Below are positions 3,016-6,320 of a stretch of DNA of 7,713 bases, one piece after another. How positions within the stretch are numbered: position 1 is the first letter of the stretch; every line of letters begins with the position of its first letter. The notes beneath the pieces are model-generated. The model saw only the letters and a program-made list of their open reading frames with translations, did no database searches and had not been told where the DNA came from. Source of the DNA: an uncultured Desulfobacterales bacterium (GTDB taxonomy: Bacteria > Desulfobacterota > Desulfobacteria > Desulfobacterales > G020354645); assembly GCA_947259865.1 (NCBI GenBank), contig CAMYNZ010000463.1, forward strand, positions 1 through 7,713, read 5' to 3'. Made by a program: the position numbers and the translations under genes.

Positions 3016-3360
3016 ATGATCAGCCATGTGGTTTTAATGAAATTTAATCCAGATGTCGAAGATTCTGATATTAAAGATCTAGAAGACGGTTTGAATGCGC
3101 TTCCCGATGCCATTGCTGAGATCCATGCCTATGAATTCGGCCGGGATGTGGTCCGCTCTGAAAGATCATATGACTTCGCCCTGGTTTCCTTATTTGCCAA
3201 CCTGCCGGCTTTAAAACGTTACCAGGATCATCCGGATCACCTGATAGTCTTGGAGAAGTTAAAAAATTTGTGTCAAAACATCATCACCGCCGATTTCGAG
3301 GTGTCGCTGCGAGTTGACCCAACTGATTCGATATCATTATCAGAAATTCCAAACTTGTGA
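3016..3360 (+). CDS. Dabb-family (stress-responsive A/B barrel) protein, 114 aa
   Basis: A single-domain protein with the ferredoxin-like alpha/beta barrel of the Dabb family (Pfam Stress-responsive A/B barrel), which dimerises in the cytoplasm. The N-terminal strand is ISHVVLMKFNPD (2-13), followed by a helix carrying the LEDGLNALPD segment (22-31). The core is YDFALVSLFANLPALKRYQDHPDH (57-80), with the family's Y-D-F-A-L strand and the Y..HP.H ending; the C-terminal strand ends near FEVSLRV. Length (about 100-115 aa) is normal. Start ATG 3016 has AAGGGA (3002-3007) about 8 nt upstream; no closer in-frame start exists. It is followed 64 bp later by a conserved hypothetical gene on the same strand. 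Biochemical role is not established for most members; ligand binding or oligomeric stress functions are reported for a few. Confidence 0.88.
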   Translation: MISHVVLMKFNPDVEDSDIKDLEDGLNALPDAIAEIHAYEFGRDVVRSERSYDFALVSLFANLPALKRYQDHPDHLIVLEKLKNLCQNIITADFEVSLRVDPTDSISLSEIPNL

Positions 3361-3424: not shown

Positions 3425-4138
3425 ATGACCACCTTAAATTTTCAATACACGTTTACCCTGAAAGACAGCGACCAGGAAGTATTTGATATAAAGTTGGATG
3501 AAAAAACATTAATATTAAGGGAACCGGTCACACAAAATCCGCCACGCTGGGCCCGCCTCGAATTCCAACAATGCCCGCACTGTCCGTTCACCGCAGACAT
3601 TTATCAGCACTGTCCTTTAGCCGTCAATCTGGTTAGTATTGTCAAACGGTTCGATCGCTTCATATCGTATGACCAGATTCAGGTGGATGTAATCACCGCC
3701 GAAAGGCTAATTTCTCGGAACACCTCGGCCCAGGAAGGCCTTAGTTCATTGATGGGCTTGCTGATCGCCACCAGCAAGTGCCCCTTTACGGATTTTTTAA
3801 AACCGATGGCCCGCTTCCATCTTCCTTTTGCCAACGAGCAGGAAACCGTTTGGCGGGCGACCGCCACTTATTTAATGGCCCAATGTTTTTTGATCCTTAA
3901 CGGTGACCGTGACGAGCTGGATTTAGAGGGATTGACAAAAATTTATAATGACATCGAAAAGCTCAACGCCGCAATAGTTGGACGCCTGCGTGCCGCCGGA
4001 AAAGAAGACTCCACCGTAAACGCCCTGGTTCATCTGGATATCTTCGCTAAACTTCTAACGCCGGGCCTTGAAGAATCGTTGAACAGTCTTAAACACCTTA
4101 TTCGACCATTCTTAACCACCCACAAAAATTGCAGATAA
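3425..4138 (+). CDS. Conserved hypothetical protein with CPxCP...HCP cysteine cluster, 237 aa
   Basis: The N-terminal part (about 1-42) reads as a small beta domain ('FQYTFTLKDSDQEVFDIKLD'). A cysteine-rich segment QQCPHCPFTADIYQHCPLA follows (about 53-71), giving Cys-x2-Cys-x9-Cys that could hold a metal. A mainly helical part comes next with SSLMGLLIATSKCPFTDFLKPM and ARFHLPFANEQETVWRATATYLMAQ. I recall proteins of this layout in many deltaproteobacteria, probably the DUF6901 type, but the family number is from memory. There is no signal peptide or membrane segment, so it is likely cytoplasmic. Start ATG 3425 is chosen because AGGAA (3416-3420) lies 4 nt before it; an in-frame ATG at 3314 would overlap the Dabb gene by 47 bp and adds low-quality sequence. 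It is probably co-transcribed with the Dabb gene. No function can be assigned. Confidence 0.85.
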   Translation: MTTLNFQYTFTLKDSDQEVFDIKLDEKTLILREPVTQNPPRWARLEFQQCPHCPFTADIYQHCPLAVNLVSIVKRFDRFISYDQIQVDVITAERLISRNTSAQEGLSSLMGLLIATSKCPFTDFLKPMARFHLPFANEQETVWRATATYLMAQCFLILNGDRDELDLEGLTKIYNDIEKLNAAIVGRLRAAGKEDSTVNALVHLDIFAKLLTPGLEESLNSLKHLIRPFLTTHKNCR

Positions 4139-4553: not shown

Positions 4554-4989
4554 ATGTCCAAGCTCGTATTTTCAGTAATCATCTGCACGCTTTTAAGTAT
4601 ATATACGGTTTCATACCCCGACACGGTCTCAGCAGCTCCCCGTTTCACCGATAACGACGATGGAACTATAACAGATAACAAGTTGGGGCTAATGTGGGCC
4701 AAAGCAGATAACCAGGAGGATATTGATTGGCAGCGAGCCGAAGCCTGGACCAAAAATAAATTTGCCAAATCCATAAAATCAAAATACAAAGACTGGCGCC
4801 TGCCCCGCGGACTGCGGTATGGTCGTTAAAATCGTCCCCAACATTAAAATAAGCTGTATACTATTGTGGTCCTCAGAAACAGCCCTGGGGGCACACCTGG
4901 CATTCAATTTCAATATCGGAGATTCTTTTACCATACCAGCCTATGATATAAGCGGATGCCGGGCACTCCCCGTGCGTGCTCTGAAATGA
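4554..4989 (+). pseudogene. Broken DUF1566 (Lcl C-terminal-type) exported protein
   Basis: The 5' part (4554-4829) encodes a signal peptide (hydrophobic to about residue 20, likely cut after VSA) and a DUF1566-type start: APRFTDNDDGTITDNKLGLMWAKA ... W..AEAWTKNKFA ... DWRLP. In intact relatives WRLP is followed by a few dozen residues leading to IKLTCC-type and WSSE segments. Here the frame runs to a stop at 4827-4829. The family's C-terminus appears in the +1-shifted frame: IKISCILLWSSE from 4843, then HLAFNFNIGDSFTIP and CRALPVRALK, ending at TGA 4987-4989. Only 36 nt separate the halves, so codons were deleted as well as the frame lost; a single-base sequencing error would not restore it. 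GAGGT (4539-4543) lies about 10 nt before the ATG. Such proteins are usually secreted and of unknown role. The decay looks recent because both halves are well conserved. Confidence 0.8.
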
Positions 4990-5016
4990 AGCTTCCCGCA
5001 GTCCGCCCCAGTCCTT

Positions 5017-5094
5017 TGGCGGATTTATTCGCCAAAGTTCTATGGCGGATTTATTCGCCAAAGTTCTATGGCGGATTTATTCGCCGTAGTTCTA
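5017..5094. repeat. Three tandem 26-bp hairpin-forming repeats
   Basis: Units at 5017-5042, 5043-5068 and 5069-5094; the first two are identical and the third differs at two adjacent bases (AA to GT). A fourth copy begins at 5095 but is lost after about 6 bp. Each unit carries TGGCGG, ATTTAT and TCGCCA, folding into a 7-pair stem with loop TTTA (one G-T pair). There are no spacers, so this is not a CRISPR array. It starts 28 bp after the pseudogene stop. Confidence 0.9.
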
Positions 5095-5118
5095 TGGCGA
5101 ACAGGGTATTGAGGCGCA

Positions 5119-5171: not shown

Positions 5172-5384
5172 ATGAAATATATGGTCAAACATAGTGAACA
5201 AGGCTATCAGGTGTATGAAACGGATGGCGCTTCCGAAATCTTGATTGCAACTTTCCATAAAGGTCCCAAAACCCGCACGGGCGAGAAATCACAGGCGCAA
5301 TTAAGGGCAGAGGAGTACTGTGACGTTCTCAATCAGAAGGATATCGGTGACGATTTTATTCTGGATGTCGAAGACGATCACTGA
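5172..5384 (+). CDS. Small hypothetical protein, 70 aa
   Basis: I do not recognise this protein. It is soluble and acidic at its C-terminus (DDFILDVEDDH), with a beta-like start (MKYMVKHSEQGYQVYET) and a charged middle (HKGPKTRTGEKSQAQLRAEEYC) that may form a helix; it has a single Cys and no signal peptide. Start ATG 5172 is supported only by a weak purine stretch (TGAGAA, 5159-5164); ATG at 5181 is possible. It lies between the repeat array and the rhodanese gene on the same strand, and its TGA (5382-5384) is 111 bp before the rhodanese start. That frame happens to be the rhodanese frame, but I see no reason to fuse them. Even codon usage and absence of a better overlapping ORF favour a real gene. 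Confidence 0.55.
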   Translation: MKYMVKHSEQGYQVYETDGASEILIATFHKGPKTRTGEKSQAQLRAEEYCDVLNQKDIGDDFILDVEDDH

Positions 5385-5495
5385 ATGCGGTTTCAAGACC
5401 TCTACCATCCCACCGATTTGACTTTTTTCCAATCCGCCATAACTTTGTATCAATGTAAAATTGGTACCGCCGCACTCCAAAACCAGAGGCTATAT

Positions 5496-5903
5496 ATGCT
5501 GAAATACATAATATGGATCCATATTTTCCTGGGTCTAATTCTGGCCCCGATATCAGGTCCTGCCCAGGCAGCTGATATCGCTCCGATGATAACAAAAGAA
5601 GCATTGTTAGAAATGCTGGCAAATGATGATCTTATTATCCTTGATGTTCGCGCCCACCCGGACTGGATGTCCAATGAATTCAGGATCAAAAACGCGTTGC
5701 GAGTCGATCCGGATGATTTCGAATCATGGGGCAATTTGTTTCCAAAAAACAAGTTGCTTGTTTTATACTGAGCTTGACCCAATGAATCTACCAGTGCCCG
5801 TTGGGCATTAAAGCTTATCAACAACGGATACCGTAGCGTGTTCGTGCTCAGGGGCGGTTGGAACGAATGGCTGGAAGCTAATTTCCCGATCGAAAAAAAG
5901 TAA
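5496..5903 (+). CDS. Periplasmic rhodanese-like selenoprotein with two in-frame UGA (Sec) codons, 135 aa
   Basis: The frame starts at ATG 5496 (AGAGG at 5485-5489, 6 nt spacing) with a signal peptide (hydrophobic core about 4-20, cleavage after AQA25). The rhodanese domain follows: DLIILDVRAHPDWMSNEF (45-62), IKNALRVDPDDFESWG, and the strand KLLVLY (86-91). Codon 92 is TGA (5769-5771), 93 is GCT, 94 is TGA (5775-5777). The same frame continues PNESTSAR (95-102), LINNGYRSVFVLRGGWNEWLEANFP and ends at TAA 5901-5903. From memory, relatives read YCACPNEATSAR here, so both UGAs replace cysteines; the first is the expected sulfur-carrying nucleophile. A SECIS-like hairpin lies just after. The role is probably sulfurtransferase or thiol/selenol redox chemistry in the periplasm. 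The alternative, a gene killed twice precisely at its two cysteines with everything after intact, is much less likely. Conventional calling would stop at 5771. The FxsA gene begins 30 bp later. Confidence 0.85.
5793..5809 (+). promoter_or_regulatory. Candidate bacterial SECIS element in the rhodanese mRNA
   Basis: AGTGCCC-GTT-GGGCATT forms seven consecutive pairs (one G-U) with a 3-nt loop whose first base is G (5800). Between the UGA codons and the loop lie 28 nt (first UGA, 5769-5771) and 22 nt (second, 5775-5777). Both fall in the 16-37 nt range known for bacterial SECIS elements, which usually have a small loop with G in the first two positions. It could recruit SelB-Sec-tRNA for both codons. 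No bulged U is obvious in the stem. Confidence 0.65.
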
Positions 5904-5933
5904 GGCTTGGCTAAAATAAGGAACCTCTGGTTT

Positions 5934-6320
5934 ATGTTGCTCAAACTTTTTCTGGCGTTCACCCTGATACCGATCATCGAACTCTACCTGCTCATCGAAG
6001 TCGGAACAATCATTGGAGCCCTCCATACGGTGCTTATAGTTATAGCTACCGGTTTTGCCGGCGCCTGGCTGGCCCGCTTGCAGGGCATGCAGACCATGAT
6101 TCGCGTCCGGTCCAGCCTGCAACAGGGAACAATGCCTGCCGAAGAACTTATTGACGCCCTCTTAATATTTATGGCCGGGATTGTACTGCTCACACCGGGT
6201 TTTGTTACCGATGCAGCCGGATTGCTCCTTTTGATTCCCAAGACGCGTGGTTACTTTAAACGTTTTCTGAGATATAAATTCGATCGCTGGATTCAAAATC
6301 AGAACATCCGTATCCAGTGA
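5934..6320 (+). CDS. fxsA: FxsA-family inner-membrane protein, 128 aa
   Basis: The start MLLKLFLAFTLIPIIELYLL is typical of FxsA. Hydrophobic segments lie at about 4-21, 25-46 and 75-98, the last containing the family signature LLTPGFVTDAAGLLLLIP. A cytoplasmic-type linker (MQTMIRVRSSLQQGTMPAEELIDA) separates segments 2 and 3, and the C-terminus is basic (RGYFKRFLRYKFDRW). E. coli FxsA modulates exclusion of phage T7 by the F plasmid; the physiological role elsewhere is unknown. Start ATG 5934 fits family N-termini, with AAGGA (5918-5922) 11 nt upstream; an in-frame TTG at 5907 adds nine residues but has no properly spaced ribosome-binding site. It is 30 bp after the rhodanese stop, so the two are probably one operon. 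No terminator with a T-run follows. Confidence 0.92.
   Translation: MLLKLFLAFTLIPIIELYLLIEVGTIIGALHTVLIVIATGFAGAWLARLQGMQTMIRVRSSLQQGTMPAEELIDALLIFMAGIVLLTPGFVTDAAGLLLLIPKTRGYFKRFLRYKFDRWIQNQNIRIQ

Follow-up and report, generated by a model that had tools for sequence, protein, structure and literature searches.

A rhodanese gene with two in-frame UGA codons from an uncultured Desulfobacterales bacterium, probably a two-selenocysteine variant of the NF041203 family

The window, a stretch of 7,713 nucleotides, carries a gene that very probably encodes an exported, single-domain rhodanese selenoprotein, the form of the NF041203 family with two selenocysteine (Sec) residues in a UxU motif. A form of this family with one Sec, CxU, was already known; the second Sec is new. 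As read from an alignment of relatives and their tree, residue 92 of the protein has repeatedly switched between Cys and Sec, with Sec retained at residue 94.

Reading frame and family assignment

The frame opens with ATG at 5496, encounters TGA at codons 92 and 94 and closes with TAA at 5901-5903 (Table 1), yielding the translation MLKY...LLVLY-U-A-U-PNESTSAR...FPIEKK. An earlier note on this DNA had described a rhodanese frame interrupted by TGA at 5769 and 5775 and running to TAA at 5901, and the same frame was obtained on re-reading. A Pfam search matched residues 34-127 to PF00581 (E 4.1e-15; 56.5 bits against a cut-off of 22.2), and residues 20-135 matched NF041203, "rhodanese-related (seleno)protein", with 151.8 bits against a curated cut-off of 115 (6.6e-45). 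Since the PF00581 and NF041203 matches span it, the sequence 3' of both UGA codons is rhodanese. Rfam gave no matches at gathering thresholds in the window, and PHROGs gave none. An in-frame UGA could by itself also point to genome-wide reassignment of the codon. Three neighbouring ORFs of the window (3016-3360, 5172-5384 and 5907-6320) end in TGA, however, and reassignment was rejected on this ground as exceedingly improbable.

Table 1. Features of the rhodanese locus, in window coordinates
Feature	Position	Strand	Basis
UxU rhodanese selenoprotein gene (predicted), 135 residues including both Sec, ending in TAA	5496..5903	+	PF00581, NF041203; 12 relatives ending at first UGA
Signal-like N terminus with a putative cleavage site near AQA|AD	5496..5570	+	Sequence; hydrophobic stretch (2.34), simple script
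UGA codon 92, predicted first Sec; Cys in CxU relatives	5769..5771	+	Alignment
UGA codon 94, predicted second Sec, common to CxU and UxU relatives	5775..5777	+	Alignment
SECIS-like hairpin	5793..5809	+	Position, energy; covariation over 80 distinct sequences
FxsA-family ORF downstream	5907..6320	+	Neighbour only; starts 3 nt past rhodanese stop given TTG start

In its accessible text the review PMC9312934 lists this family with the motif CxU, and the accessible text of a further review, PMC13188914, lists a rhodanese-like domain-containing protein, form 3, which is NF041203 and has the motif CxU with one Sec. The window gene resembles this form (rhodanese_LYCAU) in belonging to the family by cut-off, in Sec94 and in a hairpin at the same place. 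It differs at the first position of the motif, which is Cys in the form given in the available portions of both reviews and Sec in the window. With UGA at both 92 and 94, the gene lies outside the definition of the one-Sec CxU form and is classed within NF041203 as a UxU variant rather than a CxU member; PMC13188914, in the portion available, treats differing Sec positions or motifs as distinct subfamilies. UxU in the NF041203 family was not found in the accessible text of PMC9312934, PMC13188914, PMC8318568, PMC5029168 or PMC2398784, nor in literature searches, subscription papers and preprints being outside their scope. In the earlier note the double arrangement was not known as a described system; this stands for the second Sec, and not for the family itself, which was already known as CxU.

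Double-Sec families with the motifs UxxU and UxxxxU are listed in the available part of PMC13188914. According to the same text, the UxxxxU protein TsoB (NF045694, rhodanese/DsbD fusion-like) resembles the window gene in having two Sec in a rhodanese-containing selenoprotein. Its model has 572 positions and its Sec spacing is other than UxU; identity of the window gene with TsoB was rejected, the score being 24.5 bits against an NF045694 cut-off of 805. The UxxU selenoproteins described there, a Prx-like thiol:disulfide oxidoreductase and a mercuric-reductase-like metal-binding protein, likewise have two nearby Sec in a motif, but they belong to other families and have two residues between the Sec, whereas the window has one residue between, in the rhodanese loop.

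A search of 5.8 billion proteins yielded 12 relatives among 21 candidates, with 68-95% identity over the common part. All 12, known from protein sequences alone, stop at LVLY, which immediately precedes the first UGA. Eleven have a length of exactly 91 amino acids and a start matching ATG 5496, and the other, of 80 amino acids, has a later start. Gene calls elsewhere therefore appear to break at the identical codon, and UxU forms are in consequence easily lost in annotation. Searching plasmids by tblastn returned 14 records, each with less than 60% identity, and protein-derived scans of viral contigs and genome contigs gave no confirmed relatives.

Recurrence of UGA at both codons

Scanning GTDB species genomes with the DNA pattern Y/F-UGA-x-TGx-P-N-E... 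gave 24 loci, comprising 14 U-x-U rhodanese frames, one rhodanese piece with UxC and nine unrelated. The UxC piece is a rhodanese C-terminus behind an unrelated upstream frame (L009) and was left out as an intact gene. By their record titles, the 14 UxU loci come from several groups of Deltaproteobacteria, from Nitrospiraceae and from Chloroflexi/Dehalococcoidia.

Within one class, 67 of 389 genomes contained NF041203 matches over the cut-off, 73 in all, with one TGA in 57, two in 14 and none in two. All 73 were read: 57 are CxU, 14 UxU, one CAC and one CST, and every match with two TGA codons is UxU. A second class gave 28 matches over the cut-off in 23 of 55 genomes; 24 have one TGA (one of these also with TAA), three have two and one has none. 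Among the 301 genomes of the phylum of another UxU carrier (G008) no NF041203 match exceeded the cut-off. Weaker ones (E to 1e-15) number 46 and come from 37 genomes, with one TGA in 38, two in five and none in three. The matches with two TGA codons were again UxU, both in the second class (3/3) and in this phylum (5/5). One locus (L134; G429:C109:3200-4900) holds tandem members of the family, a CNC copy without Sec adjoining a USU copy.

Because 14 of the 73 over-cut-off matches have two in-frame UGA codons, all of them UxU, the motif is, judged on these sequences, a recurrent variant and not an error. A pseudogene or a sequencing artefact in which Cys codons were turned to TGA has in its favour that TGC and TGT are each one base from TGA. 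Against it stand the 23 aligned genes, the window included, that share UGA at both codons, five further such genes read later, the covarying hairpin described below and the Sec machinery of the carrier genomes. Such an origin is highly improbable, and was rejected on the recurrence of UxU.

The alignment of 84 rows combined the window with 13 loci from the pattern scan, 67 additional matches from the class of 389 genomes and three weaker matches. Excluded from it were L008, a UxU locus whose contig has one residue before the motif, and stretches below 100 bits (L009 at 54.7, L107 at 70.9 and, weaker still, the second stretch of each of L011, L039 and L106). A CxU gene of G260, the tandem pair of G429 (CNC, USU) and four Chloroflexota UxU genes were read later and lie outside the 84 rows.

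The rows divide into 58 CxU, 23 UxU and three without Sec (CAC, CST, CSS), with UxC in none of the 84. Residue 94 is Sec in 81 rows and Cys, Thr and Ser in one each; one gene beyond the alignment, the CNC copy of L134, also has Cys there. In the 81 rows with Sec94, residue 92 is Cys or Sec and nothing else. At codon 92 the UxU rows have TGA without exception (23/23), and the CxU rows have TGC (41) or TGT (17). The earlier note had looked to homologues with Cys or Sec at 92 and 94 for support, and the rows provide it at 92 (81/81 with Sec94) and, as Sec, at 94 (81/84). With Sec machinery present in carrier genomes, its Sec-Ala-Sec rhodanese continues to be the best reading of the frame.

A tree of the 84 rows (133 columns, many forks unresolved) requires 11 changes for UxU, at least five of them forced by starred, well-supported branches, and a single UxU origin was recovered in 0% of 200 bootstrap trees. 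The UxU label is nonetheless clustered on the tree, with 11 changes against a shuffled mean of 20.3. Three UxU rows (L071, L073 and L076) are nested in well-supported groups that are otherwise CxU. L071, with TGA at codon 92, and its CxU neighbour L088, with TGT, are identical at 111 of 130 residues and have the hairpin in the same place. From the nesting in the tree we infer that the direction of change at 92 was from Cys to Sec, and the two-Sec form seems to have arisen several times.

Of the rows without Sec, L078 and L079 retain Cys92, with Thr or Ser as residue 94. G009, the genome of L079, contains a CxU and a UxU copy as well. The CAC row, L054, in which codon 94 (at base 445) is TGT, has kept the hairpin, with a GGUCU loop and an energy of -6.8 kcal/mol (8.7% of recodings as stable), and may have reverted from Sec to Cys, its SECIS surviving as a relic.

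The SECIS-like hairpin and the selenocysteine machinery

The window hairpin has a 5' arm at 5793-5799, a GUU loop at 5800-5802 and a 3' arm at 5803-5809, placing the loop 22 nt past the second UGA and 28 nt past the first. The bSECIS model, in the accessible text of PMC13188914, has a small loop whose first two places include G, as G[G/U], at 16-37 nt after the UGA for most elements. The window has the G in a small loop, and both of its UGA-to-loop distances are inside this published range; support for the element comes at the level of the family, the window hairpin alone being non-significant (8.3% of 300 synonymous recodings were equally stable).

In 22 of the 23 UxU and 57 of the 58 CxU genes (79/81 in total), the loop of the best G-loop hairpin starts 21-22 nt past codon 94. 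Mean hairpin energies are -6.9 kcal/mol for UxU and -7.1 kcal/mol for CxU, compared with -1.5 and -1.6 kcal/mol for synonymous recodings. No more than 5% of 300 synonymous recodings were as stable in 17 of 23 UxU and 43 of 58 CxU genes, while 6/23 and 15/58 miss the 5% mark.

Covariation was determined on an ungapped alignment of 81 genes, representing 80 distinct sequences. The 7-pair stem is paired in 83.8% of cells, against 26.8-46.8% in slid registers. Double changes occur in six of the stem pairs, with 41 doubly changed cells against 17.0 after shuffling, and the covariation score of 0.292 compares with 0.151 for shuffled alignments (0/500 as high) and 0.028-0.158 for slid registers. As counter-evidence, sliding the register by -1 raises the number of doubly changed cells from 41 to 44. 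Of the seven pairs, the outermost is unpaired in 59/80 sequences and the innermost in 27/80. The loop bases are GU in 54 genes and GG in 27, at the same place in all 81. Residue 102 is G, S, R or W, with G as the second codon base in every case; Ser102 is encoded by AGU in 22/22, and AGY accounts for 31% of the Ser codons at other positions of these domains.

Because a covarying G-loop hairpin follows the second UGA at this distance in nearly all of the genes, one SECIS probably serves both UGA codons, and we infer that SelB and tRNA-Sec use the one hairpin to insert Sec at both. Alternatively, only UGA94 is efficiently decoded as Sec and UGA92 mostly terminates translation or is read by another tRNA. 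The distance from hairpin to codon 94 is equal in CxU and UxU genes, and the hairpin may therefore be tuned to UGA94. Both distances in the window are nevertheless within the range given in the available text of PMC13188914, UxU has been kept in several lineages and the protein is conserved downstream; decoding of UGA94 alone is accordingly considered unlikely.

Twenty-two genomes with UxU genes were searched for SelA and SelB, and 14 of them for tRNA-Sec. SelA was over the cut-off in 20/22, the exceptions being G008 (no SelA) and G012 (below the cut-off), and SelB in 19/22, with G010, G011 and G012 below. A tRNA-Sec of at least 70 bits was found in 13/14, that of G004 being below the cut-off. 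Each of the 22 genomes has at least one of SelA, SelB and tRNA-Sec. Among 14 well-known genomes used as controls, tRNA-Sec was over the cut-off in five, SelB in two and SelA in one; since five of the 14 pass, the tRNA-Sec family cut-off alone is not specific. The nearest to the window of 378 genomes searched, G274, in which the UDP-glucose dehydrogenase gene is 84% identical over 1386 bases, has tRNA-Sec (76.1 bits), SelB (377.5 bits) and SelA (609.3 bits).

The family represents a natural experiment, in which close relatives differ in Cys or Sec at 92 with the hairpin in the same place. The L071/L088 pair and the CxC/UxU tandem of L134 thus make two questions testable, namely the benefit of a second Sec beside the first and the service of two UGA codons six bases apart by one SECIS.

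Active site, possible function and gene neighbourhood

In phmmer alignments residue 94 falls on the Cys of YCGGGFRS in PDB 6mxv, ungapped and in both 6mxv domains, and in weaker, gapped pieces residue 92 falls on the YC Cys of 6kvw. When ordinary rhodaneses from the fetched loci were placed on the family profile, Cys aligned to 92 in 8/9 and to 94 in 1/9, six of the eight requiring a loop gap of 1-3 residues. An initial choice of 94 for the classical catalytic Cys was abandoned, as these eight rhodaneses and the weaker phmmer pieces place 92 there. On these alignments, position 92 is at least as likely as 94 to be the classical catalytic one. Against 94 as the sole nucleophile are two rows with Cys92 and Thr or Ser at 94, together with the ordinary rhodaneses, most of whose Cys align to 92. 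The claim of the earlier note that the two UGA codons include the catalytic position holds for either residue, both being Sec in the predicted protein.

An AlphaFold2 model built from a 26-row alignment has a mean pLDDT of 86.4, with block means of 91-98 for residues 31-135; in it, residues 87-91 form a strand and a helix begins at 98. Rhodaneses ranked first in a Foldseek search with this model. At rank 38 (E 2.4e-5) was Sud, the polysulfide-sulfur transferase of Wolinella succinogenes (PDB 1qxn), for which only the fold was compared. Sud is a periplasmic polysulfide carrier and serves as a functional model; its site is sulfur-only, unlike the two-Sec site of the window. A hydrophobic stretch or lipobox was detected by a simple script in 17/23 UxU and 56/58 CxU rows. 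Five UxU rows lack a signal-like stretch, all within a distant tree group of seven rows, and one more is cut.

In L005, L069 and L072, which belong to one clade only, a frame with the motif WUVWC lies on the same strand 485-528 bases downstream of codon 94. When its UGA is read through, the L072 frame is hit by models of AhpC-TSA, Redoxin and thioredoxin, and the redoxin/thioredoxin-like frame beside these three UxU rhodaneses is likely a selenoprotein. No frame of the WUVWC type was present among the window ORFs beside the window gene.

The family, the strict alternation of Cys and Sec at 92 and the WUVWC neighbour in one clade suggest a redox-pair chemistry. One residue of the 92/94 pair would attack the sulfane sulfur of polysulfide, thiosulfate or a persulfide, or a disulfide; the other would resolve the adduct, forming an Se-Se bond (Se-S in CxU forms) with release of sulfide or a thiol, and a periplasmic thioredoxin-like partner would then re-reduce the pair. 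The mechanism as a whole is proposed tentatively, as somewhat short of an even chance. A double-Sec protein might instead simply transfer sulfur (or selenium) or bind metal(loid)s, with no redox cycling of the 92/94 pair. The rhodanese domain and fold are kept, as such a role would have it, and certain other selenoproteins may use Sec to coordinate metal, according to the accessible text of PMC13188914. A redox pair is the better fit to the strict alternation of Cys and Sec at 92 and to the redoxin-like selenoprotein frame that accompanies one UxU clade, although neither is proof, and transfer or metal binding is regarded as a real possibility that falls below probable.

With a redox pair, the evolution and function of the family might be combined in a single account. 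Cys-x-Sec would have been upgraded repeatedly to Sec-x-Sec by single base changes (TGC or TGT to TGA), the SECIS for Sec94 tolerating a UGA six bases upstream; the two Sec would be decoded in quick succession via one SECIS, and the product would be a periplasmic, diselenide-forming sulfane-sulfur reductase. This combined account is possible, but is held with more doubt than conviction.

In G274 the genes ileS, ugd, HNH, small ORF, FxsA and hydrolase are in the same order as in the window, with 77-83% DNA identity. The small ORF there directly adjoins FxsA, without a rhodanese (window 5380-5918 versus L123 6680-6707), and a profile search of the genome found no NF041203 member over the cut-off. 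On this comparison, the rhodanese gene may come or go as a unit, by gain in one line or loss in the other. The window ORFs 3016-3360 and 3425-4138 had no match in L123 of G274, the two queries not being to the same end.

A permease-like gene is located just upstream in 27/58 CxU rows versus 0/23 UxU rows, three UxU loci having less than 700 bases upstream. In the 27 loci it ends just before the CxU rhodanese, for example at L039:52-1383 and L058:1908-3275, and one of six permease-like proteins scanned matches an amino acid permease model over the cut-off. The upstream permease comparison gave no answer for the window.

In the window region 4554-5000, an Lcl_C-like frame scores 30.6 bits, below the Pfam cut-off of 34.9, and ends at 4829. 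G274 has approximately 56 bases more between two pieces matching this region, and the window copy may therefore be decayed. Short repeats with a GGCGGATTTATTCGCC-like unit were seen by eye at window positions 5010-5105.
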